In this document: positions 9,022-64,000 of the stretch, one piece after another
Layout: each line of letters starts with the position of its first letter
Numbering within the stretch: position 1 is the stretch's first letter
Assembly (NCBI RefSeq): GCF_007994075.1
Contig: NZ_VIWU01000001.1
Coordinates: 4,030,001 to 4,094,000, forward strand
Length of the DNA stretch: 64,000 nucleotides
Origin: Pseudonocardia hierapolitana
Lineage (GTDB): Bacteria; Actinomycetota; Actinomycetes; Mycobacteriales; Pseudonocardiaceae
Direction: 5' to 3'
Made by a program: the position numbers and the translations under genes
Notes under the pieces: generated by a model
Database searches by the model: none
The model's input: only the letters and a program-made list of their open reading frames with translations
What the model was told of the DNA's origin: nothing

Positions 9022-9194
9022 GTCGGCCAGGCTGGAACGGGGCCGTCGAGTTGATCTGGTCGGGTGAGGTTGCGGTGGGCGCGCCGTTCCGGGCTCGGGC
9101 GCGACGGCGGCCGCCGGCTCTCCGGGGCCTCTCGCGTGTGCACGCCTTTCCCCTCTCCTCGACCGCTCACCTGTGTGGCCACCCCGTACAGCGG

Positions 9195-11005: not shown

Positions 11006-11122
11006 GGCACGAGCCTATGTGCGGAGGCCGGCGGTCCCCTCGGCCGGAAGTACGAGCCGCCTGTGCGGGGTTCCGCCCTGCGGCCGAGGCGGGCGCCCGT
11101 GCCGCCCGACGATCGTGTCGGC

Positions 11123-13880: not shown

Positions 13881-13881
13881 A

Positions 13882-14664
13882 TCAGCCGCGGTCGCGGCTC
13901 ACGTCCGCCATCCGGCCGATCGAGAAGAACCACGACCGATCGTGTGCGTGCGCCAGATCGGCGAACAGCGCCTCGGTCTCCGGGTGCCCCCGGCCGAGGA
14001 GCGCAGCCGCGTCGGCTGCGGCACGCTGCAGTTCGCCTGCGGCTTCGGCGGGTCGCCCGAGCAGGGCGAGGCAGCCCGCGAGGTTCGCGCGCAACGCGAT
14101 GACGTGTTCGTGACGCGGCCCGTGCGCCCGCTCCGCGTCGTTCAGGGCAGCGGCGAGGAGGGCGAGCGCCGGCTCGGTGTCGCCGAACGCCGCCAGCGCG
14201 AGCGCGTGCCCCAGCCGTGAGGTCAAGGTGTCGGGGTGGCTGGGGCCGAGCGCCCGGCTGCGCTCGGCGGCCACGCGCTCGGACAGCGCGACCGCCTCGT
14301 CGATCCGGCCCACGACGCGGTAGGCGGTGGCGAGCGCGTCCACGGCCGTCAGCGTGCGGGGGTCGGACGGGCCGAACACGAGCGTGCGATCGGCGACGCT
14401 CGCCGCCAGCAGATCGACGCCCCGCTGCCACGCGCCTGCCGAGAAGCAGACGGCGCCGAGGTTGCCTGCGACGGTGAGCGTGGCGGGGTCGTCCTCTCCC
14501 AGCCCGACGCGGCAGCTTTCGAGGGCTTCTTCGATCAGGGCCACGGCCTCCTCGGCGCGCCCCGCGCGCCAGAGATCGACGCCGGCTGCATGGCGCGCGG
14601 CGATCTCGTGTGCGCCTTCGCGCGTCCGGCGTGAGCCTCGTCGACTGCGCGTCCACTGCGGCAT
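13882..14664 (-). CDS. Tetratricopeptide-repeat protein
   Basis: The product is 260 aa. It is nearly all TPR_12-type repeats of about 42 residues, each with a GxxHPDTL or GPSDPRTL-like turn and AL/AxxLxxxG helices. Such proteins bind partners; no enzymatic motif is visible. The ATG at 14664 has a strong GGAGGA about six bases upstream; the open frame continues far upstream but is Arg-rich and not coding-like. It lies tail to tail with the permease gene, one base apart, and an AGCCGCG/CGCGGCT palindrome (13,884-13,899) near its 3' end may serve as a terminator for the permease. Confidence 0.85.
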   Translation of the reverse strand: MPQWTRSRRGSRRTREGAHEIAARHAAGVDLWRAGRAEEAVALIEEALESCRVGLGEDDPATLTVAGNLGAVCFSAGAWQRGVDLLAASVADRTLVFGPSDPRTLTAVDALATAYRVVGRIDEAVALSERVAAERSRALGPSHPDTLTSRLGHALALAAFGDTEPALALLAAALNDAERAHGPRHEHVIALRANLAGCLALLGRPAEAAGELQRAAADAAALLGRGHPETEALFADLAHAHDRSWFFSIGRMADVSRDRG

Positions 14665-15555
14665 CCGGCGTCCTCCTCTCCCATTCACCCGATCACGCCC
14701 CGAACGTCGACGCAACGCCGGGGGGTGCTCGGGGCCATTTCCGGACCACTCGGATGAGACGCAGGACGGCGGCGTCGCCGGGATCACCGTTGATGAGATC
14801 GCTCCACCCGTGCGGTGACGACGAACGTTCATCGATTCTTGCCCGTCCGGACGACGTGATTTCGCCTCCTGCTCGTCATGCGCCCGGCGGAGACGCGAGC
14901 CGTCGCGGAGAACGCGATCGCGGGGTGGTCGGACCGGCCCGGAAAGGGAGGCACATCGATCGGGCTGGGGCTTCCGTGCGCGACGGTGCGGGGGCACCGC
15001 AGCCGCGGGCGCGCTCGGCGGCGCCGCGCTCCGCGGCACTGTCGCGCCCATTCACGCGTAGCCACGACCGGACCCGCGCCTGCCCGCCCGATTCCGTGGA
15101 CCCCGGACGCGCCGCCGCCTCGTGGCTCGGATGTCCGGCCCGGAGGGCGTGCACGGCTCGGCGGGTGACGCTGCTCCGGCCGCGCCCGCGACCGCCGCCC
15201 GCGGTGCCCGATCCGGCCGCGAGAGCGCGTCGGACCAGTGGCATCGGGGCGGTCGGGCAGCGATGTCACGACAGGGCTCGACGAAGTTGATGAACATCTG
15301 GTAGCTTCCGGATGGCTTCCTCCCATGGAGGAGGTTGCGATCTTGGATCTGCTTGTTGCTGACGTTGCGCGACGGGCGGGTCGGGACCGCAAGGCTGCCG
15401 GGCGTGAATCCACCGCCTGGCTGTGGGTCGCTGCCTCAGGCGCGACGTGCGGGATCAGCCTGTTTTCGCATGCCTCTCTTCGTCCTGTGGGCCTGATGTC
15501 GCAGGCCTCGGAACCTCATCAGTAGTTCTCCACCGACCCTGTGGGAGTCGCAGCC
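14665..15555. other. About 0.9 kb without a convincing gene, upstream of the giant gene
   Basis: Open frames exist on both strands but are Arg/Pro-rich shadows without family features. A weak + strand frame ends in a TAG at 15,523-15,525, in the same frame as the giant gene and 30 bases before its start. Its last 66 codons from an ATG at 15,327 could be a leader peptide, but I do not call it a gene. A small TCCTCC/GGAGGA inverted repeat lies at about 15,321-15,336. The promoter of the giant gene should lie here; no clear -35/-10 pair is recognised. Confidence 0.5.
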
Positions 15556-18500
15556 ATGTCCACGCACTTCGCGTACGACGGTGAGGCCGCCGGCCTCTCC
15601 GCGTGCGCTGGTGTCGTGCGGCTGCGGCTCTCGCCGATGGACCGGCTCCTGTGGGTCGTGCGGTGGGTGTTCGGTCTGGCCGGTGCCGTGGTGGTGATGT
15701 GGATCGGGGCGGCGTTCCTCGCGACGCCCGCGTCCGCGGCTGCGGTGGTGCCGGCGGCGGCCGTCCAGCAGAGCCTGATGAAGGGAGGTGCAAGCAGCAG
15801 GCAAGGTGGCGACGGCGATGGCGACTCGGGCGGTGGCGACTCCGACGGCGGGGGTGACTCCGACGGCGGCGGGGACGACAAGTCCGAGAAGTCTGAGAAG
15901 AGCGAGAAGAAAGAAAAGAAGGAAAAGAAAGAAAAGAAGGAAAGTAAGTCCGACAAGAAGGACGAGGACGAGTCCGAGAAGTCGGAGAAGAAGTCCGACA
16001 AGGATGAGAAGAAGTCCGAGAAGAAGTCGGAGAAGAGCGAGAAGAAGAAGTCCGAGAAGAAGGACGAGAAGTCCGAGAAGAAGGACCGCGAGGAGTCCGA
16101 CGACGAGGGTGAGCGTCGCTCCCGCGAGGACGGCACCGACGAGCGTTCGGGTGACGACCGGGAACGCGACAAGGGTGAGCGCGAGAACGACGACGCGGAC
16201 GATCACCCGCAGGTTCGGCACGAGGAGCGCGACGAGCGCGATTCCGAGCGACGTGAGTCCGGGCAGCGTGAGTCCGAGGGGAGTGACTCCGCGCAGGACG
16301 AGTCGGAGGCCGAGGACGCGAAGGAGCGGGATCGCTCCGAGCGCGCCGACTCCGACGGAGCGGCCGCGGGGCGGCTCGGCGACGCCGACACCGAGAAGGT
16401 GCGGGCCGAGGAGCGCTCCGGAGGTCGCGACACCGACGGCGAGGATGACGGCAGCGACGCCCGTGGCCGGGACGGCGCCGAGTCGGACGACGACGGCGGG
16501 GACAGCGTCGCCGCGGTCCGGAAGGCCGCCGAGCGCGGCGATGGCGACGGCATCCGGGAAGCCGTGCGGGAGCGGGTGCGGGGAGCGCTCGGCGAGGCGC
16601 GGGAGCGGACCGAGCGCGCTCGGGAGTCCGCGGAGGACGCCACCGACGATGCCGCCGAGCGCGTCGGCGATCGCGATGCGCGGTCGGAGGACGAGGAGCA
16701 GGACGGCCGGGCGGCGCGGGTGCGTGCCGCCGATCGCGACGACGACGGGGCAAAGGACACGCGCCGCAAGAAGGCCGCGCGCGACGCTGTGGAGGCGGCG
16801 GACGGCAACGGCGACGAGGACGGCGCACGCCGCTTCGAGAAGGAGTTGGGCGAGCGCGTCTCGGAGGCGGGCGACGACGTCGAGGGCGCGGTGCGCCGGT
16901 TCGCGAAGGACGTGGCGGAGAAGGTCGAGGGCGCTCGATCGAAGCGGGGCGACGACGAGGGCAAGCGCTCGGCCAAGAAGGACGACGACCGCGAGCGGCT
17001 ACGGAGCGTAGTTCGCGAGCTGTCGGACCGGGCGCGCAAGGCGGGGTCCGAGCGTGAGGACGGCGAGGAGGAATCCGGCCGTCGCTTGGCCGAGAGGCTG
17101 GCCGAGGCGGCGGACTCCGCCGACGAGAAGGACGGCTCGAGGAAGGCCCTGGCGGAGCTCGTCGGTGAGGGCAGCCGCTCGGACGAGGACGATGACGAGC
17201 GCGGCGACCGTGCCGGGGAAGCCACTCGCTGGGTGCACGATCTCGTCGAGAAGGCACGGGCCGGGGACCGGTCCGGCAAGAACGACAAGAAGAAGCCCGA
17301 CTCCGGTGAGCGTGCCGAGAAGTGGGCGAAGCTGGCCGGTGACATCGCCGAGGCCGTCGGCTCGCGGCACCGCGCCGATGACGACTCGGACAAGGCTGCC
17401 GACAAGAAGGCCGATCGTGCCTCGGCCGAGCTGCGGCGCGCCGTGTCCGAGCGGATCGGGTCGGCGCTGGCTCGCGGCGACGACGAGAGCGACGACGGCA
17501 AGAAGGACCGGGGCGCGGATGTTCGGCGCCTCGTCGAGCGGGCCGGTGAGTTCGCGCGGGACGTCGCCGACGGCGAGGTCGACGGTGACGTCGGCAAGGC
17601 GGTCAAGGGGCTGGTGCGCGAGGCCGCGCGGGTGGCCGCCGATCACGCGGATGTCTCCGAGGGCGACGTGAAGCGGATCGAGGGTGAGGTCCGAAAGGCG
17701 ATCCAGCGCGGCGACACCCGCGCCGACGGCAAGGCCGGCGACGAGAAGGTGTCGGCTCAGGACGAGAAGGCCCTCGCCAAGCTCCTGTCCGCGGGCGACG
17801 ACGAGAAGGCGACGGCGAAGAAGCTGGCCGGCCTCGACGCCGAGGAGCGCGAGCAGCTGTGCGGCGACGGCGGTTGCTCGGATCTGACCTCGGATGAGAT
17901 GTCCACGCTGTCCTCGCGCGAGTTCTCGGACACGCGGTCCCGGGCGCCACCGCGCGACGAGGACGACGATGACAACTGGGAGTCCGACGATTCGGCCGAG
18001 CAGACCGAGCGGGTGCTCGAGGGCCGGATCGAGGTCGACAAGAGCGAGAAGAAGCTCCAGCAGACGAAGAAGGACGTCGCGTCGGGCAAGGCCACCAAGG
18101 CCGAGTACGACAAGCAGGCCGCCGAGCACAAGAAGCTGCAGCAGCAGTACGGGGCGGACCGGGCGGAGCTGTCGGAGGATCGCGCCGAGCTGGTCGACGA
18201 GGTCGTCGACGGGCACGAGAAGCTCAGCGACAGCGAGAAGAAGCTGAAGGCCGAGGAGAAGAAGGTCGCCGGCGGCACGGTGACCGCGGCCGCGCACAAG
18301 AAGAACGTCAAGGCGTACGAGAAGCAGCGTGACGAGGTCTACGAGGCCACCGACGAGCTGATGGACGCCACCGACCGGCACGTGGAGACGGTGTCGGAGG
18401 ACGACCTGGACGGTGAGGGCTCGGCGGCCGGCTGTGGCTCCGACGGGGCGTTCACGGCCTGCGGGTCGGCGAGCGAGTCCGCGGACGGGACGCGGGACTC

Positions 18501-21500
18501 CGAGCGGAAGGTGTGCCTGTCCGGGGTGTCGTCCGGGTGTGGCGCGTCCTCGTCGGCGGGCGACTCCAAGGCCGAGGCCTCGTGTGACGACACCGGTTGT
18601 GGGAGTAGTGCGTCCAGTCGCGGTGCCGACGGTGAGGTGACGAAGGCGTCCGCGAGGTGCGACGGCGACCCGGGCAGCTGTGGGCAGTCCAGCCGGGCCG
18701 ATCGTGAGGGTGCGTCGGCGGAGTGCGAGTCCGGCGGCGGAGGCTGTCGTACGGATTCGTCCGGACCCGCCCGCGAGGGGGCATCCCCGGGCGGTGCGGA
18801 ACGTCGCACGGCCGCGCAGGCGGCGTGCACCGGGGCGTGCGGCACCGATTCCTCCGCGGATCGCGAGGGTGCCGAGGCGGGCTGTGACACCGCGGGCGGT
18901 AGCTGCGACAGCAGCAGCACCGGCTCGGGCAGCGAGCGCCCGCAGGCCCGGCTGGCGTCCACCGCCGCGGCGAACGGGGACACCGACCAGGCGAGCCGGA
19001 AGGGCAGCAGCACCGCGCACTGCGAGGGCGCCGGCGGCTGTGGCACCTCCAGCAAGGTGGACCTGGGCGACGAGGAGTCCACCGACGAGGTCGTGGCCGA
19101 CGCGGATGTCGACTGCGCGGCGAAGTGCACGGGGTCGGCGAGCAGCACCACCGACGCCGGCCACAAGACCGGCACGGAGAAGGGCGCCGGCGCCGCTGCG
19201 GCGAAGACCGCGCAGGACGGGCCGGAGTCGGCAACCAACGGCAAGGCCGAGTGCACCGTCTCCGGTGGCGGGTGCACGACCCGCAGCCGGTCCGGCGCGG
19301 ATGACGAGGACTCGGCGGGCAGCGCGGGCAGCAGCGACGCGGTGGTCGAGGTCGACTGCGAGGCGGGTTGCACCGGTACCGGCACGACCAGCACCGCGGG
19401 CACCGGCCGTGGGGTCGCCGCGGGTGCGGAGCGCAAGAGCTCCGGCACCGCGTCGTGCGAGTCGGCGGGCAGCGGTTGCCAGGCCTACAGCAGCACCGAT
19501 GTGGACAGCCAGGTCGACGAGCAGGACTCCTGGACCGACCGGCTCACCGGCGGGACGGTGCGGCCCGCGGCGCTGACCGACGGCGACGCCACCGCCTCCA
19601 GCTCTGCGGGCGCGAACGTCGACTGCGACGCGGCCGGCTGCAGCGGTAAGGCCAGCAGCGCCACCAACGGCACCGTCACCGGTGCCCCGGCGACCGCGGG
19701 GGCGGCGGCCCCGGTTCGCACTACGAAGGCTTCCTCGTCGTGTGAGGCGAAGGCCGGTGGGTGCGGGATCGAGTCGGACTCCCAGGTGTCCGACAACGCC
19801 GGTGAGACCTCCTGGTCGGACCAGCTCGGTGCCGCGGCGAAGGCAAAGGCCCCGGCCGCGCGGGAGCTGACCGCATCGAGCACGGCGGGTAGCGAGATCG
19901 AGTGCGCCGCCGCGACCTGTGTCGCGTCGGGCAAGAGCACGACCGCGGGTGGCGCGTCGGGTGATGTGAAGGGTGTGCGCGACAGCACGGGCACCTCGTC
20001 CTGCACCGCGCACGGTGCCGGTGGTGGCTGCACCACCGCGGCGGACACCACGGTCGCCGACCGAGACCCGGCCGATGTCGACCCGGCGTCCGGTGTGGCC
20101 GCGGTGTCCGGCCCGGTGAGCGTGTCCCACGCCGCGGGTTCGGTGCAGTGCTCCGGTGCCGCGACCGAGTGCGGCGGGACCGCGACCAGCTCGACCAGCG
20201 CCCGGGACACCGGGGTGTCCCCGCACGCCCGCGGCACCTCCGCGACCACGGAGTGCACGGTGACCGGTGGTGGCTGCTCCGGCGAGACCTCGTCGTCGGC
20301 CTCCAGTGCCCCGGACTTCGTGGCGGTGGACCCGAACACCGGGAAGCCGCTGCCGGGCCAGTCGTTGTCCGGGCCGTCCTCGACCTCGTCGTCGAGTGCC
20401 AGCCTGGCCTGTGACGCGGGAACGGCCTGCTCCGGTTCGGTGCGCACCACCACCAGCGCGTGGGACGGTGCGGTCGCGGGCGGGAAGCCGCGGACCTCGG
20501 AGGGCATCGCGTCCTGCACCGGTGGCACGGGTGGTTGTCAGGTGCGGTCGGTGTCGACGGCGTCGACGGGTCCGGGTGCGGCGCTGGCGTTGTCCGGTCC
20601 GCAGGCGGACGGGACGGCGCAGCCGGTGAACACCGCCCGGTTGGTGGCGGGTCCGTCGGCGGCCTCGGCGGCGGGTGCGGTGCTGGTGTGCGAGGGCCAG
20701 GCGGCCTGCACGGGCAAGGTCACCAGCGCGGCGTCCGCGACCGACCCGAGTGTGTCGGCCGACCCGCGCGGCTCGCGGTCCGAGGGATCGTGTGAGGGCG
20801 TGTCGGGTGGGGTGTGCCAGGCGGTCACCAACTCGGGTGCGTCCAGCGGCCCGGACGGGAACGTGATCGCGCCGCTGGTGCAGGCCCGCTCGACGGCGAA
20901 CGCGACCGTCGCCTCGGAGACCACCGGGGAACAGGGGCAGACGCCTGCCGACGGGCAGCAGGGTCAGGGCTCCGACCAGCCGGCGACGGTGCCCGCACCG
21001 GTGGCGCCGGGTTCGAGCGCGAACTCGGGTGGCCCGACGGTGCAGGGTGCGTCGAGCTGGTCGATGGCCTCGGCCACGATGGACTGCGCCGGGGGCACGC
21101 TGTGCTCCGGCACGGCGCGAAGCTCGGCCACCGGTCAGGACGGGCCCTCGGCGGTGAACGACGGCAACGGGGCGCGTGGTCCTCCGGGGACCGGCACCAC
21201 CACCTCCAGCGGCAGCTGCACCAGCTCGGTCAGCGGCTGCCATGCCCAGACCGATTCCTCCGCGGGCTCCGGCCAGGTCGTGGCCGACATCATCGCGGAG
21301 CAGCAGAACACCCAGGCCGAGCAGGCCGAGCAGCAGGCGAAGGAAGCCGAGCGGCTCGCCGCGCAGGCCGCGAAGGTCGCCGCCCGTCCGGGTGCGACCG
21401 CCGCACAACTGAAGACCGCCGCCGACGCCGCAGCCGCGGCGAAGGACGCGCGCAAGACCGCCGCCGAGGCCGCGAAGCTGGCTGCGAAGCCGGTCACCGA

Positions 21501-24500: not shown

Positions 24501-27500
24501 GCCGACCGGCACCGGCCGCTTCCCGAACGGTTACGGCAGCGTCGAGCTGTTCGACGACAGCAACGGCGGACCGGTCTCGCGCTACACCCCGTGGGGGGAC
24601 AAGCAATCCTGCACGGCCGGTGACTACTGCGGGTTCACCCAGTACAACCGCAGCGCCGACGGTCAGGGCGGGGGCGCGATCTGCAACGCGTCCGGCGCAG
24701 GCGGTGGCTGCTACGGCTTCAACAAGGAAGGCGACATCCAGAACGCCACCGTCAAGGTCGACAAGGACGGCAAGCCGTACACGGACGCCGAGGGCAACCC
24801 GATCGGTGTTCGCACCGGGCTGCTCTACCGCGACAAGGACGGGAAGCACGCCGGCCGCTTCTGCGCGGAGGGGGGCGACTGCAGCGGCTCGGGCTCCGAG
24901 TCGATCGAGGCCCCGAAGGGAACCATCGCGGCGATGGTCGCGGTGCTCGACCCCAGCCTGAAGGTCACCGAGGAAACCGCGAAGGATCTCTCCGAGGTCA
25001 CCGGCCCGGACGGGAAGAAGCTGCTGGACCGCAAGCCGGATGATCGGCGGCCGCTGAGCCAGAACGAGATCGACCAGCTCAAGGCGGCCGGTCGCGAGGA
25101 CCTGATCACGGCCCACAACCGCGACATCGGCGAGCTGTCCCGGGCCCAGCTCGACGGCGCCCAGATGTCCATCCTGGACGACACCGTGACCCAGAAGGAC
25201 ATGGGTCCGAAGTACAAGGAGCTCGAGCCGAAGATCGACAAGCTGGCCGGGCTGACCGAGAACGCACTCGAGGGCGACAACCACATCGACGCAGGCGAGT
25301 GGGCCGAGATCGATCCCCTCCGCAAGGAGATCGATGACAAGGCACCGGGCATGCTGGAGAAGTGGCTGCCGGCGCAGAGCCGGCTGCAGGCGATGCGTCA
25401 CGCGTCCTGGTCGATGGACGACTTCACCGCCGCCAACCAGGCCGTGGGCAACAACCGCCAGCTGATCGACAAGCTGGTGCCGGGCTACGACCCGTCGAAG
25501 GCGCCGACGCCTGGCCAGCAGGACGAGGCGATCCGGATCGTCGCCGAGCAGCAGAAGGACGTCGGCAACGCCCAGCTGGCGTTGCAGTCCGCGATCGGGG
25601 AGCGCAGCCAGAACCTGAACGACCGCGTCGCCAGGTACAACGCCGCCTTCCAGCGGATCAAGGATCGCGGCGGCCCGACCGTCGGCGAGTCGATCTGGCT
25701 CCAGGGCGAGTACCAGTCGATCAACCGCGAGAAGGACGCGATCACCGCGATCGCACGACCGCTGCAAGCCGACATCGACGCCAAGGAGAAGGTGCTCCGG
25801 CAGACCGACCTGGCTTACGCGGACGCCTCCGGCAACCAGGCATGGGCCGGCGACCTGCACGGTGCTTTCGACCGGCACAACCGGGTCAACAACCTCTACC
25901 AGCGACTCTCGGTGTCGCCGCAGAAGCGTCAGCAGACCTTGTCGGAGACGTTCGGGACGCTCACCTCGCTCACCGAGCTGCAATACAACGCGGTTCGCGA
26001 CAAGCCGTTCGCGGCGCCCAAGAATTACAAGCCGGGCAATAGCATCGCGCCAAACGAGAGTTTGATGGGCGGGAGAGCTCTGCCCTCGACCATGTTGCAG
26101 GACTTCCGCTACATCCACGCGGCGGCCAAGTTCAAGGCCGATTGGGACGCTTACCAGGGCCCCTTGCGCAAGATCATCGATGAGACGATGGACCTCGATG
26201 CGCAGGCGGCTGCGGCAGCGTTCGGGCGGACTCCGAAGATCATGGAGGCCGAGCGGCGTCCGCAGGAGATCGACCGCAGCTTCGCGGCCATCTATGAGGA
26301 GTTGGGTGGTGACCGCAACGAGAAGGCGCGCGAGCAGGCCCGCAATGTGCTGAACACCATCGGCGAGAAGGCCGGGGACGGCAGCAAGGTCGAAGCGATC
26401 CGAATGCCGTACTACCAGCCCGACACCGAAAACCAGGAGGGCGGGTGGACCACCGTCACCCTGTTCCGCGTGAAGCAGGACGACGGCAGCTACCGCTACA
26501 TCGATGCGACCGGTGCGCACTTCGGCAGCCTCGACGACTTCCGCAACAACAACGAGATGCTCGCAGAGGACGGCACGCTGATCGCGCCGTCGAATCTCGG
26601 TATCGAAGGCGTGGACAAGTTCGGCAGGCTCGACAGCACCGACAAGCCGGCCACCGACTGCGGCTGTGAGCTCACCACCACGTCGGGCAGACACATCTCC
26701 GGCTGGGACAAGGCCAAGCACTGGGTCGTGGGTGGCGCCATGGTGGTCGGCGGCGCGTTGCTGTGGGTCGGCGGCGGCTTCGCCACGCTGGCGACCCTGG
26801 GTGCTGCCTCACCGCTCGGCGCTGCCGCGGCGATCGGAGGTACCGCCTTGATCGCAGGCGGGATCGCCTACACCACGTACGACGTGGCCTCCAACATGAT
26901 CAACCGCAGTAACCACGGCCAGTCCAACAGCTGGTCCAACCCCGCCGCCCGGGCCGACTACATCGGCATGGCGGGCAACCTGCTGGCCGCAACCGGTATG
27001 GGCATCGGGATCAAGGCTGCATTCACCGGCGCCGCCAGAGCCACCGCCGCGGAGGCGGCGGCGGGCGCGGCGAGTGCAGGAGCGAGAGGTGCCGCGGGCG
27101 CCGGCACGTCGTTCTGGGGGCGGACGTTCAGCGGGAAGTGGGCCACCGGCGCGCCCGGATGGCAGGGGACGTGGACGGCCGCGCACCAGGCGTACAGCCC
27201 GGGGATCAAGGCGATGGTCAACGGCACGGCCTCCCGGGCCGCGTATGCCCACAGCGCCTTCAACTGGGCAGGCTTCGGTGTCTTCGGTTACACGGCGGTC
27301 GACGGCACGATCTCGTACCACAAGAACAAGAGGGACATGACCCCGGCGCAGCGGTCCGAGGCCGTGTCCGGACTGTGGGCGACCTGGTCGATGATGGCCG
27401 CGCCGCTTGCGATCGGCGGGATCGGCATGGTCACCAAGACCCGGTTCCCGGTCGGCCTTGCCCGTTCCGGCAACACCACTCCGCCTCAGGGCGACGCGCC

Positions 27501-51500: not shown

Positions 51501-54500
51501 CGACCTGGCCCCACCGGGTGGCCAGACCCTGCGTGGGCTGCACCGCGAGCTGATCGGTGAACTGGCGGCGCTCCGCGCGTTCCTCGCTCGCGCCGACGCG
51601 CATCCGGTTTCGCGCTCGGAGGCACGAGAGGTCCTCGAACGCGCCGAGCGGGCGCTCGCCACCGACATCCCCCGGGAAGAAGCCGCGGCACCGCATGACT
51701 GCGCGCAGTGCGGCGAGGTGGTCGCGCCCGACCATCGGTTCTGCGAAGCGTGCGGCGCTCGGCAACCGTCCGGTGGTGCGCTGGCGGTGGAGCCGTTGGG
51801 CGTGGCTCGTGACGGTTTCGAGGCCGCGCTGGGAGCGGCCACGCCGACCCGGCTGCTGACCCGTGACGGCGGCGGCGCCGGCGGCCGGCTGGTGCGCGCA
51901 GCGGACCTGCGGCACCGGGGTGTCGGCGACACCACGTTGCGCAACGTCATCGCGTACACGCTCGACGGGCGGGTGTACGTCACCGACGAGCAATTGGCGG
52001 TGATGCGGCGGCTGCAGGCCAAGGCGTTGCTGCCGGCGGACTTCCTGGAGCGGGTGCTCGCGCACGAGCACGCGTACCGGGTCGACCGCCCGGTGTCCGT
52101 CGAGGAGCTGGCGGCGTGGCGGGAGCGGCGCCGGGGCAGCGCTCAGCGGTTGGTCGGGCAGTGGCTGGACGCGTTGGCGGCCGAGCAGGCCGGCCTGCGG
52201 ACGTCGGTGGCCGAGGGCCTGGCCGAGCTGGCCTCGATCGTCGAGTCCGCGCTGTCGGCGGCGGCCGAGCACCGGCCCGGGCGCTGGACGGCGGCGGCGT
52301 ACTCCGAGGTCGCGGACGCCACGACTCAGTCGGCCCTGCTCACCGAGCGGCTCGCCGAGGTCGCGGACCCGGCGGTGCGCGCACAGCTGACCGGCGAGCT
52401 GGCCGTGGTCGCGCGGCGGCTGGACCTGGCTCGGCGGATCCTCCGGATCACCGACGACCGCTCCCTGGGCTCCTCGCCGAGCACGCAGCTGTGGCTCACC
52501 GCGATGGGTGTGTTGCGGGACCTGGCCGCCGAACCGGTCGCCGGGGCGGAGGCGTGGCGGACCGTGCTGGTCGTCCGGCTGTTCCAGGCATCCCGGCGCC
52601 CGTTCGCCGCCGCCGACGACCCGGCGTGGAGCGCGGTCGCCACCCTGCCGAGCTGGGTGGCCGACGCGCTGGGCCGGCCGTACTGGCTGGAGCGGTCGTG
52701 GACGCGCAAGGCGTCCATGCGCGACCGGCTCGCGCTGGCGCTGTTGATCGCGGCCACCGGCCGGGCGCCGTGGTTGGCGGACCTGCCCAAGCGCCGCCGC
52801 GGTGCGGCCGTGCTGTCGGACCTGACCGAGGCGTTGCTCGGCATGACATGGGGCCCTGCACTGGACGAGCTGCTCGCGAACGCGCCGGGCGCCGAGTGGG
52901 GCCAGGACCGCAAGCTGTACCTGGGTGCGTGGCTGGGCCTGGCGCGAACACTTGCCCGGCTGGACGGCGTGCTCGCGAAGCTGGACCTGACCGCGCCCGT
53001 CCAGGCCGACCTGCGCACGCTGGCCGCTGGAAAACCGGCGCGCGCGGCGAAGCGGGCCGCCCCGCTCACCGCGTACGAGCGGCAGCTGCGCCGGACCGTC
53101 GGACGCAGCATCGGGGCGCTGCTGCGGGTGTGGCTGTCGCCCTCGCGGGCGGTGCAGCTCAAGCCCGGGGGCATGCTGTGGAACGCCCTGGTGGAGTACC
53201 GGGGGAAGAGCCGCTGGGACCTCGAGCAGCTGCTGGCCCGCTACTTCGCGGTACTCCACCGCGGCGGTGACGCCGACGAGGCAGCCACCGTGGCCTGGAC
53301 CTGGTGGCACGACCAGCTGACCGTCCGGCTGGGCGGGGTACGGCCGTGGGTGGCGCGCGAGCACGCCCCGGCCCCGGAGCGTCTCTCGATCGACGGTCGG
53401 CACGTCCAGCTCGACGTCTCCACCGACCCGGTGGAGATCCTCCACCTGGGCTGCGGGTTCGGGAACGCCTGCCAGCACCTGCTGACCGGGGTGGAGCGGG
53501 AGTACGCCCAGGAGAACGTGCTGCACCCGCGGATCGCGGTGATCTACGCCCGCGAGCTCGACGCGCACGGCTCCGTCGGCGAGCGGATCGCCCGGCTCGC
53601 GGTGTTCGTCACCGACAACGAGATCCTCCCGCTCAGCCACGTCATGACCGACCGCGGGGATCTGGACCTCGGGCCGGCGTTCGTCGGGTTCCTCACCGGA
53701 TGGGCCACCGAGCTGGGCGTGGACCACCTCAAGCAGACCCGCCCGACCACGTGGTACGACCCGGACCTCCTGCCCACGGCTTCGGGCGCGGTCACCCGGG
53801 CCCGGAGCATCCAGCTCTTCCCGTACGGCAAGTGGAACGGGGCAGAGGCCGACCTCGACGAGAAGGGCACGGCGCGCGGCATCTCCGCCGACGTGTTCGC
53901 GGCAAGCCCGGCCTCCCGGGTGACCATCCCCGGCCACCGCCCCCTGCCCAGCACCTACACCGAGACCTTCGAGGTGTGGTCCCCGGCCACGGCGCCCGCG
54001 CAGGGCCGGGTGCGCCCCGACACGGTGGCGTGGATGCTGCGTGCCGCGCGCGACCGGCTCGTGCTGGCCCACGACCTGCTCAGCGACCGGTACGCAGGCG
54101 AGGACGACCGCGACTACGCGGCGGAGCTGCTCACCGACGCCGAGGCGGGCCTGGCCGACGTCGCCGCCGTGCCGGGCGGCATCGAGCAGGCCGGGTACAT
54201 CGTCAACCGCTACCTGCTGGAATCGACCCGCGCGCTGGCGGACAACCGGTCGGGCCGGGTCACCCGGCTCGACGCCGGAATCACCGGCTGGCTGGTCGAG
54301 CACTTGCACACGGCGGGCGAGATGGTGCTGGCCGAGCGGTACGAGTCGTTCGAGCCGGCCGTCGCGGTGCACCCCGCGCTGGTCAGGGCCATCGTCGCCG
54401 ACGCCCGGCTGGCGATCACGCTCGGCGCCGGTGACGCGGTGGTGGTCCGGCTCGCCGACCGGGCCGGGTTCACCCCGGTCACCCGGGGTGGACGCGACCT

Positions 54501-57500
54501 GTGGCGGCTGGGTGGGCCGGGGGTCAGCGCACCGCTGCTGGTGGATGCCGACTTCCCCGCCTCGACCCCGCTGCTCGACCCGAGGCTCGGAACCTTCGAG
54601 CTGGTCGCGCGGCTGTGGCGGGCCGCGGGCGGTCCCGTGCTGGCGTCCGGTTCGCTGACCGTCCGGCAGGTCTTGCACGACGGGGCGGTGTACTCGCTGA
54701 TCGTCGAGGGTGACGAGCTCGTGCGGCTGCTGGTCGTCGAGCAGCCGGCGGCCCCGACGACCGGGCGGCAGGCATGGAAGGTTCTCGCCGCATCGCTGCC
54801 GACGTTCGCCAACCCGCACGGCCACCGCGAGAACGCCGAGGGCGCGGTCGAGGTGGGCAGCCCCGAAGCGGCCGCGCTGATGGGCACCGGGGCACCCGTG
54901 GGCTGGGAGCTGCGCGCCGACGGCACCTTGTGGCTGGTGCCCGGGCCGAGCACCGAGGCACTGGTGCCGGCGGCCGGCACCGTGGCCGGCGCCGAGCTCA
55001 CCGTGCTCACCCGGAGCCGGCGCGCGTACGCCGACACCGACGCCGAGAACCGGCTGCTGACGGCTGTCGTCGAGGCAGCGTTCGCCCGAACCGGCTGGAC
55101 GGCCGTCACTCGCGACGGCGGTGAGCACCGACCGCACGCCGGTGCGGCGATCCGGGGAGGCGTCCTGCCCGGCGAGGAGCCGCTGCAAGAGGCGCTGCGG
55201 CGGGGTGTGGCTGGGCCGCGGGATCCGGCCCGGCTGCCGGAGTCACCGCGAGGACCTCCGCCGGGGTCGGGGCCGGCGGCCGAGACCGGCGCGACCGACA
55301 CCGGTACCGCGGGCGGTGGCGGGCGGGGCGGCCCGCTGGCGGTCGGTGATCTGGTCACCCCGGTCGTCAGAGCGGTGCTGCGGCGGATGCCCGAGCTCGT
55401 GTTGTACATGCGTTCGGTGGCGTGGTGGCAGTTCCCGCTGTTGCCGCGGCCGTCGCCGCGGTGGGCGCCCCCGATCTGGACGTGGGACGCGGAGGCGTCG
55501 ACGGTTGCCGCGTTGCGTGACGCCGGGGTGTCGAACCCACGTGAGGTGCTGGTCGCGTTCGGGTGGGTGCATCCGGTGGACGCCCCCAACGGGGCGATCG
55601 TGATCTTCCAACACGTGTTGGAGGAGGTGCATCGGCTCGTCGAGTCCGGTCGCCTGAACCCGGAGTGGTTCACCGACCTGATCGCCTACGAGACCCGGTT
55701 CCGGATCGAGGGGCACACCCGCTCGGCGGACGGCCGCTCGCGACAGGAGGTCGCCGCCGAGCTGCTCGAGCGTCTCGACCGGGCCCGCCGGACGCCGCCG
55801 CCGACCGTGCGGCAGCTGCTGCAGCACACCGGCGTCGGCCCCGTGCGCGGCATGCTGCTGCGGTACCTGATCCCGCGCGACGCGGAGGCGTCGGTGCGCC
55901 GGCACGAGCGGTTCGGCAGCCCACTGGTCCGCCGGGTCGTGATGGGCACCGTGGGGCGGCTGACCGTGCCTTGGGAGGGCCGCCTCTCCCGCAACTACCG
56001 GCTCGACGGGAGGCAGCCCCCGTTGGAGGCGGTGACCAGGTTCGCGCTCGGCGGCAGCGTGTTCAACGAGATGCTCCACCTCGCGGTGGTGATCTCCACG
56101 AGCGCGCAGATGTTCGACGAGGCGACGGCAGGGGGGTTCGGCTCGGAGTTCTGGGATGACGCGGGGCTCTTCGTGTGGAACACCCTGCTGGTCGCGTTGC
56201 AGCGCTACAACCGGGCCCGCGCGGTCCGGGCGGCGGACCGCTTGCTGACCAGGAACGGCTACCGGTCCGACTTCCGCAACTGGGCCGGGCTGGACGAGCG
56301 GGCGGTGCGGCGCTACTACGAGGCCGAGCGTGCCGGGCCCGGCCCCCGGCACGACATCGCACCGGGTGGCGACGGTGGGGCGGTGGTGCTCGGCGAGGAT
56401 CTGGTGAGCGCGCAGCGGGCGCAGGTGGTGCGAGACCTGCGCACGCAGGCCGGCAAGCTGGTCCCGCTGGAGGGGCTGGCGTTCCGGATGCCGCCGGGAC
56501 CACCCGGCGTCCGGGTGCTGGTGGCGGGCGATGACGTCGTGGTCTCCCATGCCGACCGGCTGGTGGCGTTCGGATGGAAGGACCATGCGGTACCGCAGGC
56601 CCGCAACGGTGTCGTGGTCGTCACCCTGGCGATGCTCGAAGAGATCTCCGGACACGTTCGGGCCGGTCGGTTGCCGGCGCGGTGGTGGTACCGGCTCCTC
56701 GTCCACGAGCGCGACTTCCACCTGCACGGCGACGAGCACACCGGCCACCGACACGCCGCACATGCCGCCGAGTTGGCCGCGCCGCTGATCGCGGCCATGG
56801 CGCTCGCCGACCGCGACTCCGCGTGGTACCGGTCCGGTCAAGCGGTCAGCGCGCTGGGCTCGCAGGTCTCGACGTTGCTGGTGCCGTGGATCGCGGTGAC
56901 GGTCCTGGACGCCTCGACGCTGCAGGTCAGCGTCCTGACGTTCCTGTCGGCCGTCGCCTTCCTGCTGGTGTCGCTGCCCGCGGGCTCCTGGCTGGAGGGG
57001 GTGCGGAAGCGGCCGCTGATGATCCGCATCGAGCTCTCGCGCGTGGTGCTGCTGGCATCGATTCCGCTCGCCGCGTTGGCCGGGGTGTTCAGCCTTGCCC
57101 AGCTCTACGCGGTGGTCGGCGGTCTCGCTCTGCTGGAGGTGTTCTTCCAGATCGCCGCGCAGTCCCATGTCGACGCGCTCGCCGGCGGCGACCAGCGACG
57201 CCTGCGCGACATCCGCGCGAAGCTGCTCACCGACCAGTCCGTCGCGCGAGCGGCCGGGCCGACCCTGGGGGTGTCGCTGGCCTCCGCGATCGGCACCGTG
57301 ACCGCGATCGTCGCCGATGCCGCCTCCTATGCGTTCAACGCGTTCGCGCTGACCCGCGTCCGCACCATCGAAGGCAGCCCTGCACCGGGCGAGCGCGCGT
57401 CGACCAGGGCGGGAGCGTTCAGCACGCTGCGCGGCATCACCGAAGGCGTGCGTTTCGTCGCAGGCCATCCGGTGCTCGGCAGGACGAGTGCGGTGTACGC

Positions 57501-60500
57501 GACTGCGAACTCCTTCTCCGCGGCGACCAGCGCGCTGCTGGTCGTGTTCCTGGTCAAGTCGCTCGACGCCTCGTCGCTCCAGTTCGGCGCCGTCACCAGC
57601 GTTGCCGCGCTCGGCGGTGTTCTCGGCGCCCGGCTCGCGCGTCAGCTGCTCCAACCTCCACCCACCGCCGCGCCGGTGGGGTGGTCCGGCCGGCTCAAGG
57701 CGAAACGGGTCGGCAACGCACGGCTCTTCTGGATCGCCACGGTCTGGCCGGGGCCGCTCTACCTGCTGTTGCCGCTGGCACAGCCCGGGTGGGGGATCCT
57801 GCTCGTCGCCGCCACCCTGACTGTCGCGAGCGCGTCGGCTGCAGTGTCGATGGTCGTCACCGGTCCCTACCGTGCTTCAGTCACGCCGCCGGAGCTGGAA
57901 ACCCGCACCCTCGCCGCAATCGAGTGGATCTCCCGGATCGGCATGGCACCCGGTGCCCTGCTCGCCGGCTTCGCCGCGACGCAATTCGGGCTGGTGCCCA
58001 CATTGCTCGTCGCCGGTCTCGGCCGATGGGCACCGGCCCTGCTGCTGGTGTCGTCCCCACTGCGCACCGCCCGGGAGTTCGGACAGATCTCGGCCGGCAA
58101 CGGTGCTGCCGTCCAGGGTGGTTTCCTGCCCGGGGAGGAACCGCTGCTGGCTTCGCTCCTGCGGGCGGCGCTGCGGCGGGGGATCGCGAGACCGGTGGAC
58201 CCGGCCGAGCTGCCGGGCGTCCCGCGCGGCACGCCGGTCCGGGCGGTCGTCGTTCCGGGTGCCTTCCTGCGGGTGCGGGGCCTGGGCCGGGTGGCGGACC
58301 ACTTGGGTGCCTACACACTGCACACCGAGCGCGGGCCGGTGGTCGTGTTCACCGACGAGATGTTCGCGCGGCTGCGTGCCGCCGGTCTGCTCGGCGAGAT
58401 CCTGCGCATCGAGATCGAGGACCGGGTACAGGGCCGGCGCACCGAGGACGCCCACCAGCGACGCGTCGACGCGGTGCTGGGGTGGCTGCCCCGCCTCGGG
58501 CAGGCGGAGCCGACCGCGCGCGAGGTCGAGCGGCTGACCGGCGCGATCGTGGCGTTGCTGCGGGGGAGTCCGGAGGGCGTGCTCGGTGTGCGCGACGTCG
58601 AGCGCCGGTTCTCGCTCACGGGCAAGACGCTCCGGTACGTGGTGGGGGCATCCGGTGGCGAGCTGTTCGTCTCCGACGACGGTTCGCGGGTGGCGCTGAC
58701 CGGTTCCCGGTCCACCGGCGGCGCGGCGATCCGGGGTGGGTTCCTGCCGGGTGAGGAGCCGGTGTTGCAGGCGGTGCTGCGGGAGTCGCTGCGGCGGGGT
58801 GTGGCGAAGCCGCTGGACCCGGCCCGGTTGCCGGCGTCGCCGCGCGGTCCGCCGCCGGCACCGGTGGTCCGGGTTCCCGGCGCGTTCCTGCGGGAGCGGG
58901 GCCTGAACCGGGTGGCCGACCACCTGGGCGCTTACACCTTGCACACCGAGGACGGCCCGGTGGTGTTCTTCACCCTGCGGATGTTCGCTCGGCTGCGCGC
59001 CGCCCGTCTGCTGGACGAGATCCTCTGGATCGAGATCGACGACCGGGTGCACACCCTGCGCGACGAGGACGCCCACCAACAGCTGGTGGACGCGACCATG
59101 GAGCGGCTGCCTTCGCCGCGCAGGCGTCCAGAGGCGACTGCGCGCGAGATCCTCCGGGTGACCGGCGAGATCGTGGCGGTCCTGCGCGAGAGCCCCGACG
59201 GTGTGCGGTCTGCCAACGACGTCGCGGAGCAGTTCTCGCTCAGCGTCCGCGAGCTGCGCTACGTGGAGTGGGCATCCGAGGGAGAGCTGTTCATCTCGGA
59301 CGACGGGTCCAAGCTTGCGCTCACCGAGGTCATGCGCGAGTGGTGGCTGGGCAACGAATTCCGGGTGAGCGACGCCGAACGGGCCGCGCATTTCGCGATC
59401 TGGGAGGACTTCATCAAGGCGCGTCAGGCCAAGCATTCGGAACTGGCCAACGTGCCGTGGCAGGACCTGTCCGGTGTTCGGGGATACGTCAAGCGGAGTG
59501 CGATCTTCAACGGGCCCCTGCGGTCGTTGGCGCTGACCGAGATGGCCGGTCTGACCTCTCAGATCCGGTTGCTGGTTTCGGGGCTGAACCAGATCCCGTT
59601 CCGCGGTTGGGTGAACCGCGGCGTCTTCTTCGGCAGCAGGGAAGAGGCGGCCCGGTACGTCGAGCGTTACGTGCCGGGGCGGACCGTGACCGAGTCGCAG
59701 GTGATCAGCACCAGCAAGTACAAGGGGTACCGGGCGACGGTTCGGTTCCGGATCTTCTCGATCACCGGTGGGGATGGCCAGCTGGTCTCGTGGAGCAAGA
59801 CGGACTACGAGGTCGTGTTCCGCCCGGGCACGACGTTCCACGTCGTCCACCGGCACGAGCGTCGGCGCGGGCGTTGGACGATCGTCATGGTCGAGGCAGG
59901 CCCGGAGGGGCCGGGTGCACCGTGGCCCGGAGTCCGCGACGAGGCTCGGCGGGCCGAGCTGGCCGCTCGGGTCGCGCGCAGCGGCAAGTTCATCCCGGAG
60001 GCGCACAGCCACACGCTGAAGCGGATCGGCGACCGGATCGACGACATGATGCTCTTCGCGTCGGGACCGGTCGTCCTCATCTCCATGGTGGTCCTCCTGC
60101 CGCTGTGGCTTGCGGCTGTGGTCGTGGCCGGTGCGTTGCTGGTCGTCACCATCGGGCTGGCCTTCGCGTTGCGGCCGTTCACGATGCTCGGCCGCGGGCT
60201 CCTCCACCTCGGCTACCACGCATGGTCGGCAGCGGGTGCGGCGAGCGGATCGCTGTTGCGCCAGTCCCCTCACCTGTCGAGCGGAACGCTGGGCATCCGC
60301 CCGCTCGGCGAGAACGAGCAGCATGCGCTCGCCGACGCGTTGCCGTGGGCGTCGGCGAGGACCTCGCCGGGGCTACCGCACCACCTCCACAGCGCATGGG
60401 ATCTGATCAAGGTGCGGTGGTGGGTGCTCGGGCCGCTCCAGCACGCGCTGCCGGGCTGGCGGATCCGCATGGTCGCGACCGGGCACGTCACCAGGGAACT

Positions 60501-63500
60501 GGTCCGCGGAGGAATGGACCTTGAGACGGCCCGGACGCTCGCCCGCCAGCTGGTGGTGTCCGTGGACGCCGCCCATCATGCGGTCTACGTCACCACCGAC
60601 ATGGTGCTGGCGACCCTGCGGAACACCGACAACCACCGCCTGCTGGACAAGCACTGGTGGGCCGAGCTGTTCTCCGGATCCACGCGGCGCGAGACCACCG
60701 CGGTGGAGAGCCTCGACGGCTTCATCGGTCTGTTCACCGGCCCGGCCTCCGCGGCCGCCGCCGCACCGCCCGCCCGCTGGCCCGGCCGGCCGGCGCCGCG
60801 TAGATGGACCGACTGCACCGCTTGCGGCCAGCGGCACTGGGGCGCATACGGCGCGGCCGGAATGCTGCTCGTGCACCGCGCGCCGGACGGGACGAACTGG
60901 GTGCTCATGCAGCACCGGTCGAGCCGGAACCAGCACGCGGGCACCTGGTCGCTGCCCGGTGGGGCTCTCGAGCAGGGGGAGACCGCCGAGCAGGCCGCGG
61001 TCCGGGAGACGCTCGAGGAGACCGGGCTCCGCGCTTCGGTCGACTACACGTTGGCCGGGCGGAGCTACGTCGACGACCACGGCAACTGGGCCTACACGAC
61101 GGTGCTCGCCCACGCCGCCTCGCTGGTCCGGCCCCGCATGTCGGGGAAGGCGAGGAAGGAGAGCATCGAACTGCGATGGGTCCGGGTCGACGAGCTGCAC
61201 ACGCTGCCGCTGCACCCGGGTCTCGCGGCGACCTGGCCGGCCGTGTCCGCCGCCCTGCTGGCCGGCACCGTCCGCGGCGGCGACGGTGCCGCGATCCACG
61301 GTGGGTTCCTGCCCGGTGATGAGCCGCTGCTGCAGTCGGTGCTGAGGTCGGCGTTGCGGCGCCGCGTGGCCAAGCCGATCAACCCGGCCGAGCTGCCTGC
61401 GTCGCCTCGTGGACCGCCGGTGCAGGTGGTCCTGGTGCCGGGTGCGTTCCTGCGCGTGCGCGGCCTGGGCCGCGTGGCGGACCACCTGGGCGCCTACACG
61501 TTGCACACGGAAGAGGGCGCGGTCGTCGTCCTCACCGACGAGATGTTCGCGCGGCTGCGTGCGGCCGGGTTGCTCGGCGAGATCCTGCGGATCGAGATCG
61601 ACGACCGGGTCCGGGGCCTGCGCAGCGAGGAGGTCCACCAACGGCACGTCGACGCGGTCATGGGCCGGCTGCCGCGGTCGGCCGCGCACGCGGAGCCGAC
61701 CGCGCGCGAGGTCGAGCGGCTGACCGGCGCGATCGTGGCGTTGCTGCGGGGGAGTCCGGAGGGCGTGCTCGGTGTGCGCGACGTCGAGCGCCGGTTCTCG
61801 CTCACGGGCAACACGCTCCGGTACGTGGTGGGGGCATCCGGTGGTGAGCTGTTCGTCTCCGACGACGGTTCGCGGGTGGCGCTGACCGATGTGATGCGCG
61901 AGTGGTGGCTGGGCCACGAGTACCGGGCCACCGACGCCGAGCGCGCCGAGTACCGCGAGCTGCTCGGCACGCACCGGATGCGCCTGATGAAGCGGGGTTT
62001 GATCGCGCCGTCGCTCCGGAGGTTGCTCGCCTGGCATCCCGAGCTGGCCGGCGTGCCGGCCGAGGACCTGCTCGCGGGCCGCGACTACACGAGGTGGGGC
62101 TCCCGGTTCAACCGCGCGCTGCGCTCGGTGGACGTCGCCGAGCTCGCCAGGTGGACGGTGCACATCCGCATGCTGGTGTCCGGGTTGAACCAGCTCCCGG
62201 TCCGCGGCTGGGTGAACCGGGGGGTGTACTTCGAGAGCGCCGGCTCGGCGAACCGGTTCGTGGAGCGCTACGTGCCCGGCCGGACGGTGACCGAGTCGCA
62301 GATCATCAGCGCCAGCAAGCGCAAGGGCTTCTCGCCGACGGTGAAGTTCCGGATCTTCTCGGTCACCGGGGGGTACAGCGGGCTGGTCTCGAGCGTCCCC
62401 GCTCACCACGAGGTGACCTTCCGGCCCGGCACCACCTTCCACGTGCTGTACAAGCAGCAGGACCGGCGGGGGCGCTGGACACTCGTCCTGGTCGAGGCGG
62501 GCCCCGAGGGGCCGGAGGCGCCGTGGCCCGGACTCCGGGACGAGGTCCTGCGCGGTGCGCTGGCCGCCCGCATCGCCCGCGGGGGCAAGTACCGGTCGCT
62601 GTACCACGTGGCGACGTTGAAGGACCCCGTCGAGCGGCTCTTCACGAAGGGGGAGACCCCGTCCCCGGGCCGCTACCTCCTGTTCGGGGCGGGGATGGCG
62701 GTGGCCGTCGTCCTGGTGACCGCGCTCGGTCCGCCGTTGGTGGTCGGATTCCCGGTCTACGTGGCGGCGCACCGCCTCGCCCGGGAGGTCGTTCATCTCA
62801 CCCATCGCTCGTGGCTGGCCGGGCACCGCTGGACGTGGCGGCTGCTCCGGCGGGTTCCCGTCGTGCCGGACGCGGTGGTCGGTACCCGTCCGTTCACCGA
62901 GAACGAGCAGGGGGAGATCCGCACGGCGTTGGCGCAGGCGTGGGAGGCCGCGGCGGGCCGGTCCCCGCGGGGATCGGGCAGCGCACGGGCGTTGCTCCGG
63001 TCGGAGCGGTGGGTGCTCGGGCCGCTGCGCACCCGGCTGCGCGGCTGGGAGGTGCGGGTGGTGGCGCCCACGAACCTGGCCCAGGTCCTGGCGGGTCGCG
63101 GGACGGATGCCGTGGAGGCGGTCCGGCTCGCCAACCGGCTGGTGGTGTCCCTCGACGCCACCGACAGGGTGGCGTACCTGACCACCGAGATGGTGGGCGC
63201 GACCGTGCGTCACACCAAGGAGTACCGCCTGCTGGGCAAACACTGGTGGGGCGGGTTCCTCGGCCTGCTCGCCGAGCACGGCTCGGCCGGCCTCGCCGGC
63301 GGCGCTTCCGTCGAGAGCCTGGACGGCTTCCTCGGTCTCGTCCGCAGCCGGCTCGGTGTGCCCACGGCCCCGCCCGCAGTTCGTCACCCACGCTTCGGGA
63401 AGCCGCGGTGGACCTCCTGCACGGGCTGCGGTCACCGGCATCGGGGACCGGCGGGCGCAGCGGGCCTGCTGCTCGTGCATCGCGCACCGAACGGGACGCG

Positions 63501-64000: not shown

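Follow-up and report, generated by a model that had tools for sequence, protein, structure and literature searches.

Giant toxins are known from Actinobacteria. Zhang et al. 2012 described SACTE_5178, a protein of 13,652 amino acids (aa) with ADP-ribosyltransferase (ART) domains (PMC3482391), and a further account treats giant secreted toxins in which ARTs occur together with SecA-like and major facilitator superfamily (MFS) domains, a role in secretion being predicted for SecA and MFS (PMC8195603). Here we analyse a gene of 21,881 codons in Pseudonocardia hierapolitana, most of which lies in a stretch of 64,000 nucleotides (the window; contig NZ_VIWU01000001.1, positions 4,030,001 to 4,094,000 of an 8,856,958-base genome assembled as a single contig). 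Like SACTE_5178, with which it was compared by published description only, its product is actinobacterial, exceeds 10,000 aa and carries several ARTs in one chain; like the toxins of PMC8195603, it joins ARTs, a SecA-like ATPase and MFS in one giant protein, theirs being said to be secreted. It is 1.6 times as long as SACTE_5178 and carries the Pseudonocardia stalk. At E 0.01 in Pfam (whole chain, searched in pieces) and NCBIfam (residues 501-20,433) it has none of the caspase-like, lethal-factor-like or MCF1-SHE domains of SACTE_5178-type proteins and none of the GT4 or helix-turn-helix domains of the PMC8195603 toxins; in the parts of these accounts available to us, GT4, helix-turn-helix, caspase-like and lethal-factor-like domains belong to a mix that varies among the giant toxins. 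The available part of PMC8195603 has no Pseudonocardia, no stalk, no exclusion of cysteine and no sizes up to 58,228 codons. Actinobacterial giants combining SecA, MFS and ART are thus already published, as far as these accounts describe them, and the gene analysed here is a variant of them. An earlier sequence-only reading of the window had regarded the domain combination as foreign to any described system, a view contradicted by these toxins and by relatives in public databases. What is new is the near-absence of lone cysteines behind the stalk, hydrophobic segments that follow the positive-inside rule, and variation of the cargo among species at a single locus. We found no description of the Pseudonocardia stalk family in the open-access literature searched.

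Two other groups of giant proteins are relevant. An Omnitrophota protein of 39,678 aa has 42 predicted membrane helices (PMC10066038), and Omnitrophota giants of up to 85,800 aa are cited in the accessible text of PMC12057145. These giants resemble the Pseudonocardia chain in extreme length and many membrane segments, and a SecA search also matched two large open reading frames (ORFs) of Omnitrophota; phylum and cargo differ. The two ORFs, P0013 (7,167 aa) and P0014 (5,630 aa), are partial and contain SecA including the scaffold/wing region PF07516; P0013 has no hydrophobic segments and P0014 has five, and their cysteines (0.28% and 0.21%, respectively) are spread along the chain. West-Roberts et al. 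2023 (bioRxiv) reportedly found divergent SecA in most full-length giant genes, together with many membrane regions, and actinobacterial examples of more than 30,000 aa. Polyketide synthase megaproteins are likewise encoded by multi-kilobase single frames in the genus Pseudonocardia, but their cysteine content is ordinary in our control set, and the chain described here contains no ketosynthase, adenylation or carrier domain in Pfam.

The giant gene was delimited by a frame scan, translation and reading on beyond the window. Frame +1 is open from position 15,526, has a GTG at 15,541 and an ATG at 15,556 with GGGAG upstream of it, and contains no stop through the end of the window. The first stop lies at window-coordinate 81,199, 17.2 kb outside. 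The window therefore holds residues 1-16,148 (15,556-64,000, forward strand), the first three quarters of a gene that totals 21,881 codons or 65.6 kb (21,891 codons stop to stop). The sequence-only reading had claimed a single frame of at least 16,148 codons behind a good ribosome binding site; the frame stands, with the GGGAG in front of its ATG. Its estimate of more than 48 kb was right but too cautious, the real length being 65.6 kb and one relative having 58,228 codons. It had also recommended extending the sequence and looking for homologues with the same domain order; the extension gave the stop and, as the next gene, a trypsin-like protease, and a same-order homologue was found in a second species of the genus (genome G064). 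GC content by codon position is 0.74/0.54/0.92 across the gene, and every 1,000-codon block is coding-like, including early low-complexity blocks in which GC is high at second positions and still 0.89-0.90 at third positions (GC3). On the opposite strand the longest frame has 3,240 aa, which we took as the noise level for DNA of 73% GC. Two antisense frames face the giant gene (16,999-26,721, reverse strand, 3,240 aa, and 26,809-36,477, reverse strand, 3,222 aa) and are most probably side effects of the high GC content and codon bias.

The G064 counterpart has 19,925 aa and is colinear with the giant over most of its length. The ratio of nonsynonymous to synonymous substitution rates (dN/dS) was 0.12-0.79 in 21 of 22 thousand-residue bins, staying below 1 to the last bin; the unscored bin (14,001-15,000) has eight aligned codons, and the cargo there differs. 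Identity is 72-97% in most bins and 41-59% in four (starting at 16,001, 17,001, 19,001 and 20,001), where the global alignment may match unrelated stretches. Ten further segment comparisons gave dN/dS of 0.30-0.74; all of these are simple counting estimates, and inflation is expected from the strong GC3 bias. We conclude that the giant frame, judged by its sequence, is one gene.

The N terminus of the chain is signal-like. Residues 38-56 (15,667-15,723) form an uncharged hydrophobic segment directly followed by the Ala-x-Ala-like stretch TPASA-AA, and by hydropathy and inspection they are predicted to be a signal peptide or signal anchor, in keeping with the anchor proposed earlier. In the related giant of genome G004b the N-terminal 80 residues are 67% identical. 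A low-complexity spacer rich in Lys, Arg, Asp and Glu is evident from the sequence at residues 66-640 (15,751-17,475), and the stalk lies at residues ~950-2,500 (18,403-23,055), a Ser/Ala/Gly-rich repeat with paired cysteines that serves as the family marker. Residues 1,531-2,320 are kept in all 12 giants aligned; the stalk-like shape is putative. DUF4781 (PF16013) follows at residues 3,641-3,829 (26,476-27,042; Pfam, E 6.3e-10), with a Gly/Pro-rich linker between it and the SecA-like motor.

The motor occupies residues 5,008-5,642 (30,577-32,481) and comprises SecA_DEAD, preprotein cross-linking and P-loop regions recognised by Pfam and NCBIfam (in Pfam, SecA_DEAD E 6.5e-34 and P-loop_SecA E 4.2e-31). 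Its motifs include Walker A (MRTGEGKT), DEVD and QLRGRAAR. The Walker A, DExD and arginine-finger residues are invariant in all six giants aligned; a seventh giant, P0004, which is not in this alignment, has an altered Walker A (LTGQGKE). A profile built from the motors of the six giants matches Mycobacterium tuberculosis SecA (1nkt) with E 4.8e-111, the match to the solved protein covering the nucleotide-binding and cross-linking domains and leaving the scaffold and wing outside. The motor thus has in common with the SecA translocase ATPase both nucleotide-binding domains, the cross-linking domain and the ATPase motifs, but differs from it in being embedded in a chain of 21,881 residues with scaffold and wing undetected. 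The SecA profile from the P. hierapolitana chain matches 12 of 14 giants. All of the 36 best Protein Data Bank (PDB) matches of a structure model of the SecA stretch are SecA, with TM-scores by query length of 0.19-0.26, and we therefore make no structural claim at the domain level. Behind the motor, regions at residues 5,655-6,390 (32,518-34,725) are common to several other giants on comparison and have no family match; used as a protein query, residues 5,001-10,000 matched nothing.

Behind the stalk, cysteine is almost excluded from the chain. There are 16 cysteines in 18,581 residues, compared with 158 expected from 197 local genes (called by simple frame bias, so that false genes may be among them), and all 16 have a partner within 30 residues. 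Across 14 giants the same region holds 88 cysteines in 181,096 residues, against ~1,539 expected, and 84 of the 88 are paired; the 58,228-codon frame contains a run of 39,374 residues without any. Twelve database relatives, at least one of which (P0012) is already among the 14 giants, have 28 cysteines in 44,444 residues, every one paired. As a control, eight polyketide synthase frames of genome G010 have 260 cysteines in 44,356 residues. Membrane nature was rejected as the reason for the loss, since the 32 local genes with at least four hydrophobic segments have 0.68% cysteine; the 124 local genes with none have 0.97%. Of the cysteine pairs left in the P. hierapolitana chain, some resemble zinc ribbons more than disulfide bonds. 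Even cysteine numbers are described as frequent among exported mycobacterial proteins in the accessible part of PMC12421883; within the literature searched, as far as its text was available, we found no mention of a loss of lone cysteines in giants. We infer from the cysteine pattern that the whole chain passes through an oxidising space.

The same chain is rich in hydrophobic segments, of which there are 57. Behind residue 3,400 the 14 giants together have 617 hydrophobic 19-residue segments, 3.43 per 1,000 aa as against 0.65 in the polyketide synthase control. For segments less than 60 residues apart, the flanking Lys/Arg lie on opposite sides in 212 and on the same side in 71 of 283 scorable pairs; hence the hydrophobic segments are probably real membrane spans.

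The gene belongs to a family within the genus. With the SecA stretch as query we found giant frames in many Pseudonocardia genomes, and a survey with the stalk (residues 1,531-2,290, E 1e-15, genomes at least 90% complete) detected it in 20 of 56, P. hierapolitana included. Scoring 19 candidates per genome, so that the counts are lower bounds, we listed at least 60 distinct stalk-bearing open frames with 5,000 codons or more, spread over 18 of these genomes and none with an internal stop; at least seven exceed 20,000 codons, and the longest has 58,228. In a class-wide draw of 118 genomes the stalk matched P. hierapolitana only; the limits of the family beyond the genus rest on these genomes and on the named database matches. 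Those to the stalk are Pseudonocardia apart from one Actinomycetes bacterium among 12, and those to SecA include the two Omnitrophota ORFs. Relatives of 5,856-7,969 aa from Pseudonocardia are already in public databases, where some bear the label 'DUF4781' or 'preprotein translocase subunit SecA', the search being sensitive to lengths of ~5,500-17,500 only.

Three giant frames of genome G012 were read whole. The longest (G012:C3:815157-989876) has 58,228 codons counted from the first start and 58,239 between stops, and the others (G012:C3:68607-191447 and G012:C1:2914925-3000700) have 40,947 and 28,592 codons, respectively, both stop to stop; all three are closed by stops, free of N and coding-like in GC. 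The 12 stalk frames listed for this genome sum to 251,456 codons, ~7.9% of its 9.6 Mb, in an assembly of seven contigs with a contamination estimate of 7.

Comparison of syntenic copies indicates that the cargo changes while the front of the protein is retained. The giants of G022 (20,140 aa) and G004b (11,651 aa) have the front part in common with the P. hierapolitana chain and little of the cargo. Their neighbours resemble those in the window, with a histidine kinase and either an F420H2-quinone reductase plus thiD and thiC or an xdh-type gene, the window genes having been assigned partly by Pfam and those of G022 and G004b by eye. The G022 cargo (14 pieces, residues 5,141-20,140 minus two gaps at locus borders) includes rhomboid, trypsin-like, PP2C, cation-efflux and MFS domains, and residues 10,001-16,000 of the 58,228-codon frame (six pieces) include MFS, PP2C, FHA and a sub-threshold sigma-factor match. 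Residues 20,604-21,334 are common to the P. hierapolitana and G022 giants at the point where that of G022 ends; P. hierapolitana and G064 carry an extra DUF3990-Nudix tip beyond it, and they differ from each other in stretches near residues 13.2-15 k and 16-18 k. A conserved body with a variable C-terminal part, as in polymorphic toxins, is thus found across P. hierapolitana, G022 and G064. From these differences between species at one locus, conflict-type evolution of the cargo is predicted.

The cargo of the P. hierapolitana chain is diverse. Behind the motor we noted by eye a LysM-like pair flanked by hydrophobic segments and a Pro/Thr-rich linker (residues 6,740-6,862; 35,773-36,141; no Pfam match at E 0.01). 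Self-comparison revealed a cargo block present in two copies (residues 7,756-9,164, 38,821-43,047, and residues 10,164-11,544, 46,045-50,187), each with an amidohydrolase domain in Pfam (8,448-8,626 and 10,815-11,011, respectively); the two amidohydrolase blocks are an internal duplication, 64% identical. Between them lie a GNAT acetyltransferase (residues 9,434-9,531; 43,855-44,148; Pfam, E 2.6e-6) and a membrane domain of the cation-efflux (CDF) type (residues 9,595-9,761; 44,338-44,838; Pfam E 3.2e-16, and NCBIfam). Next come a first ART-like domain (residues 11,793-11,985; 50,932-51,510), recognised by eye and by a profile that includes the two XopAI-like copies but with no library match of its own, a zinc-ribbon-like CxxC...CxxC element below the Pfam cut-off (residues 12,049-12,066; 51,700-51,753) and an MFS domain (H+ antiporter family 2A0121; residues 13,761-14,145; 56,836-57,990; NCBIfam E 3.1e-34, below the curated cut-off). 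The rest of the window holds a second, XopAI-like ART (residues 14,605-14,772; 59,368-59,871; NCBIfam E 3.6e-9), a Nudix domain with a complete box (residues 15,109-15,222; 60,880-61,221; Pfam, E 4.2e-19), a third ART, again XopAI-like (residues 15,535-15,631; 62,158-62,448; NCBIfam E 5.3e-6; both XopAI-like matches are below the curated cut-off), and a second Nudix domain with a complete box (residues 15,964-16,108; 63,445-63,879; Pfam, NCBIfam and our own profile). All features of the chain lie on the forward strand. The earlier count of at least eight domain families in one frame agrees with the Pfam and NCBIfam matches in the window part (DUF4781, SecA, amidohydrolase, GNAT, cation efflux, MFS, XopAI-like ART and Nudix). 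Past the window lie a second membrane block and two more domains of each kind, Nudix and ART-like, and own profiles or inspection indicate a kinase-like domain in the cargo.

The five ART-like domains are two XopAI-like copies, one DUF3990 above the Pfam cut-off, which we take to be an ART-type family, and two recognised by own profiles or by eye. Four of the five are followed by Nudix. Boxes are complete in three of the four Nudix domains; in the third in order, Leu replaces the first Glu. Nudix profiles detected eight domains in the 14 giants (four in P. hierapolitana, two in G064 and one each in the 58,228-codon frame and in G011), and seven of the eight, all but that of G011, have a profile-detected ART-like domain 9 to 678 residues upstream. 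These seven cases are not independent, because two of the P. hierapolitana Nudix domains derive from one duplication and those of G064 are orthologous. A module of ~110 residues with an HE..FH signature also recurs in the chain (residues 13,284-13,408, 13,630-13,745, 18,286-18,395 and 19,625-19,738), with 31 profile matches across 12 of the 14 giants and no Pfam family at these residues; we rejected its identification as a metallopeptidase, the model being weak (mean predicted local distance difference test score, pLDDT, 61.5) and having no PDB match at E 0.001.

Directly downstream of the giant gene, at 81,260-82,513, lies a gene for a trypsin-like serine protease (Trypsin_2 match) that appears HtrA-like and membrane-bound, with a catalytic triad identified by eye. 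In tblastn it has a three-piece match beside the G064 giant and none beside that of G022, and it was rejected as a fixed partner. Upstream lie a LuxR-type response regulator and a histidine kinase (9,195-11,005, reverse strand), an FtsX-like permease frame (11,430-13,880, forward strand) and, just before the giant gene, a TPR-repeat frame (13,882-15,051, reverse strand).

We propose, with a probability of about 50%, that the gene product is a string of effector enzymes, either displayed on the surface or exported, whose own SecA-like motor would aid its passage through the membrane, and that it acts on other cells. The basis in the sequence is a single frame with a signal-like N terminus, a paired-cysteine region, intact SecA ATPase motifs and a species-variable cargo. 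The N terminus would enter the Sec pathway, and the stalk would fold outside, locked by its paired cysteines. The emerging motor may then grip the remaining chain and drive or pace the insertion and export of the 16,000 residues that follow, with the hydrophobic segments seating the cargo in a membrane so that its enzyme domains face the positively charged side. Effectors (ART-like, Nudix, amidohydrolases, acetyltransferase) would reach cells of a competitor, a prey organism or a host. As a possible chemistry, an ART would add ADP-ribose to its target and the adjacent Nudix trim it to a phosphoribosyl mark.

Several observations weigh against this proposal. The positive-inside alternation is that of ordinary polytopic membrane proteins, and the enzymes could stay in the producer's cytoplasm; since such segments should stop in the producer's membrane, the alternation sits badly with export of the cargo, and cysteine loss and membrane signature are in conflict under any simple model. 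The helical scaffold/wing (SecA_SW) is absent from the motor by sequence (Pfam and the six-giant profile), the structure model of the SecA stretch is weak (mean pLDDT 58.6), and the SecA profile finds no match in two of the 14 giants, namely the 58,228-codon frame and that of G004b, the latter having a weak SecA match in a separate comparison with the P. hierapolitana chain. MFS, CDF, rhomboid, PP2C and FHA domains among the giants' cargo are not toxin-like. No immunity-type gene was recognised adjoining the giant gene, the next gene being the HtrA-like protease that has no match beside the G022 giant. Finally, the Nudix and DUF3990 pieces also fit candidate anti-phage models: three of nine pieces match in PADLOC, all to candidate (PDC) models, with best E values of 9.6e-13 for Nudix stretches and 2.4e-14 for DUF3990. 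Anti-phage defence itself is regarded as unlikely, the matched Nudix and DUF3990 domains being generic.

The alternative that survives best is a resident membrane machine, a chain inserted a single time with the stalk outside and the enzymes in the producer's cytoplasm, doing envelope, transport or signalling work rather than attacking other cells. We consider it possible, though doubtful. The positive-inside alternation is the strongest evidence that the enzymes stay in the producer; by eye, the LysM-like and Pro/Thr-rich loops fall on the uncharged side and the enzyme domains on the charged side, and CDF, MFS, PP2C, FHA and rhomboid domains would suit transport or signalling. However, a cytoplasmic location offers no obvious cause for the cysteine loss (pooled cargo below 1/10 of control rates, that of P. 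hierapolitana ~1/7 to 1/10), and the variation of cargo between species at one locus and the ART and XopAI-like domains also speak against it.

An extension of our proposal, which we regard as unlikely, is that the whole chain goes outside and into another cell as a transplantable machine, where the motor, running on that cell's ATP, would pull in the rest and seat foreign transporters, proteases and effectors, correctly oriented, in the membrane of that cell. Lone cysteines would then be almost lacking (up to 39,374 residues without one) because the chain passes through the outside.

It is similarly improbable that one transcript and one primary chain give rise to several products through cutting by proteases, with R-[GA]-P-P as the sites and the trypsin-like neighbour or the rhomboid and trypsin-like cargo as the enzymes. 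This motif recurs about every 1,000 residues (for example at residues 14,430 and 18,304), with 16 copies behind the P. hierapolitana motor against 1.4 expected from composition shuffling. Its count, taken behind Walker A for two giants and behind residue 5,000 for ten more, exceeds the shuffle mean in each of these 12 and every one of the 200 shuffles in 11 of them (G014 ties). The permuted [GA]RPP, absent from the 12 giants, has a single copy in the 58,228-codon frame; R[GA]PP is absent from the polyketide synthase control frames. R[GA]PP is kept at the amino-acid and not the DNA level (93 different 12-mers at 164 sites), and 75 of 134 copies are close to hydrophobic segments, compared with 22% of random positions. 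The excess, its conservation as amino acids and the adjacent protease gene favour processing. However, homology ends are scarcely enriched at the motif, and the protease gene is unmatched beside the G022 giant and matched in three pieces beside that of G064. Three related ideas were rejected: the motif as a module border or recombination scar (67 of 1,028 homology ends within 30 residues, random 5.6%; site DNA diverse), the motif as part of the ~110-residue module (20 of 164 sites within 60 residues of a module start), and processing by an internal trypsin-like domain (its match falls below the Pfam cut-off, and on inspection it lacks the catalytic histidine).

We give still less credence to an adhesion or prey-digestion giant, a coat or stalk protein for attachment as proposed for Omnitrophota. 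The stalk, the many membrane segments and the embedded SecA would fit, as would the SecA-bearing Omnitrophota ORFs P0013 and P0014, but at E 0.01 the chain has no Pfam family for attachment or for binding or degrading carbohydrate, and its effector families point elsewhere. An artefact of assembly or of frame, or a decayed fusion whose translation does not give a single chain, is scarcely credible: although GC-rich DNA yields long chance frames, as on the opposite strand, this is countered by the single-contig genome, the coding GC pattern, the colinear G064 counterpart with dN/dS below 1 to its end, and 15 other giant frames without an internal stop (that of G000b from the edge of the fetched stretch), four of which were checked and contain no N.

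If the proposal of an exported protein acting on other cells is true, a family of extremely large bacterial proteins would be opened to experiment, in a genus with named strains whose frames of 5,000 to 58,228 codons have a marker domain in common, include an orthologous pair and vary in cargo. The near-total loss of lone cysteines provides a quantitative pointer to the chain's final location. The translation of giant frames as one chain, their crossing of the membrane and the occurrence of an own SecA in giant ORFs of two phyla would thereby become testable.

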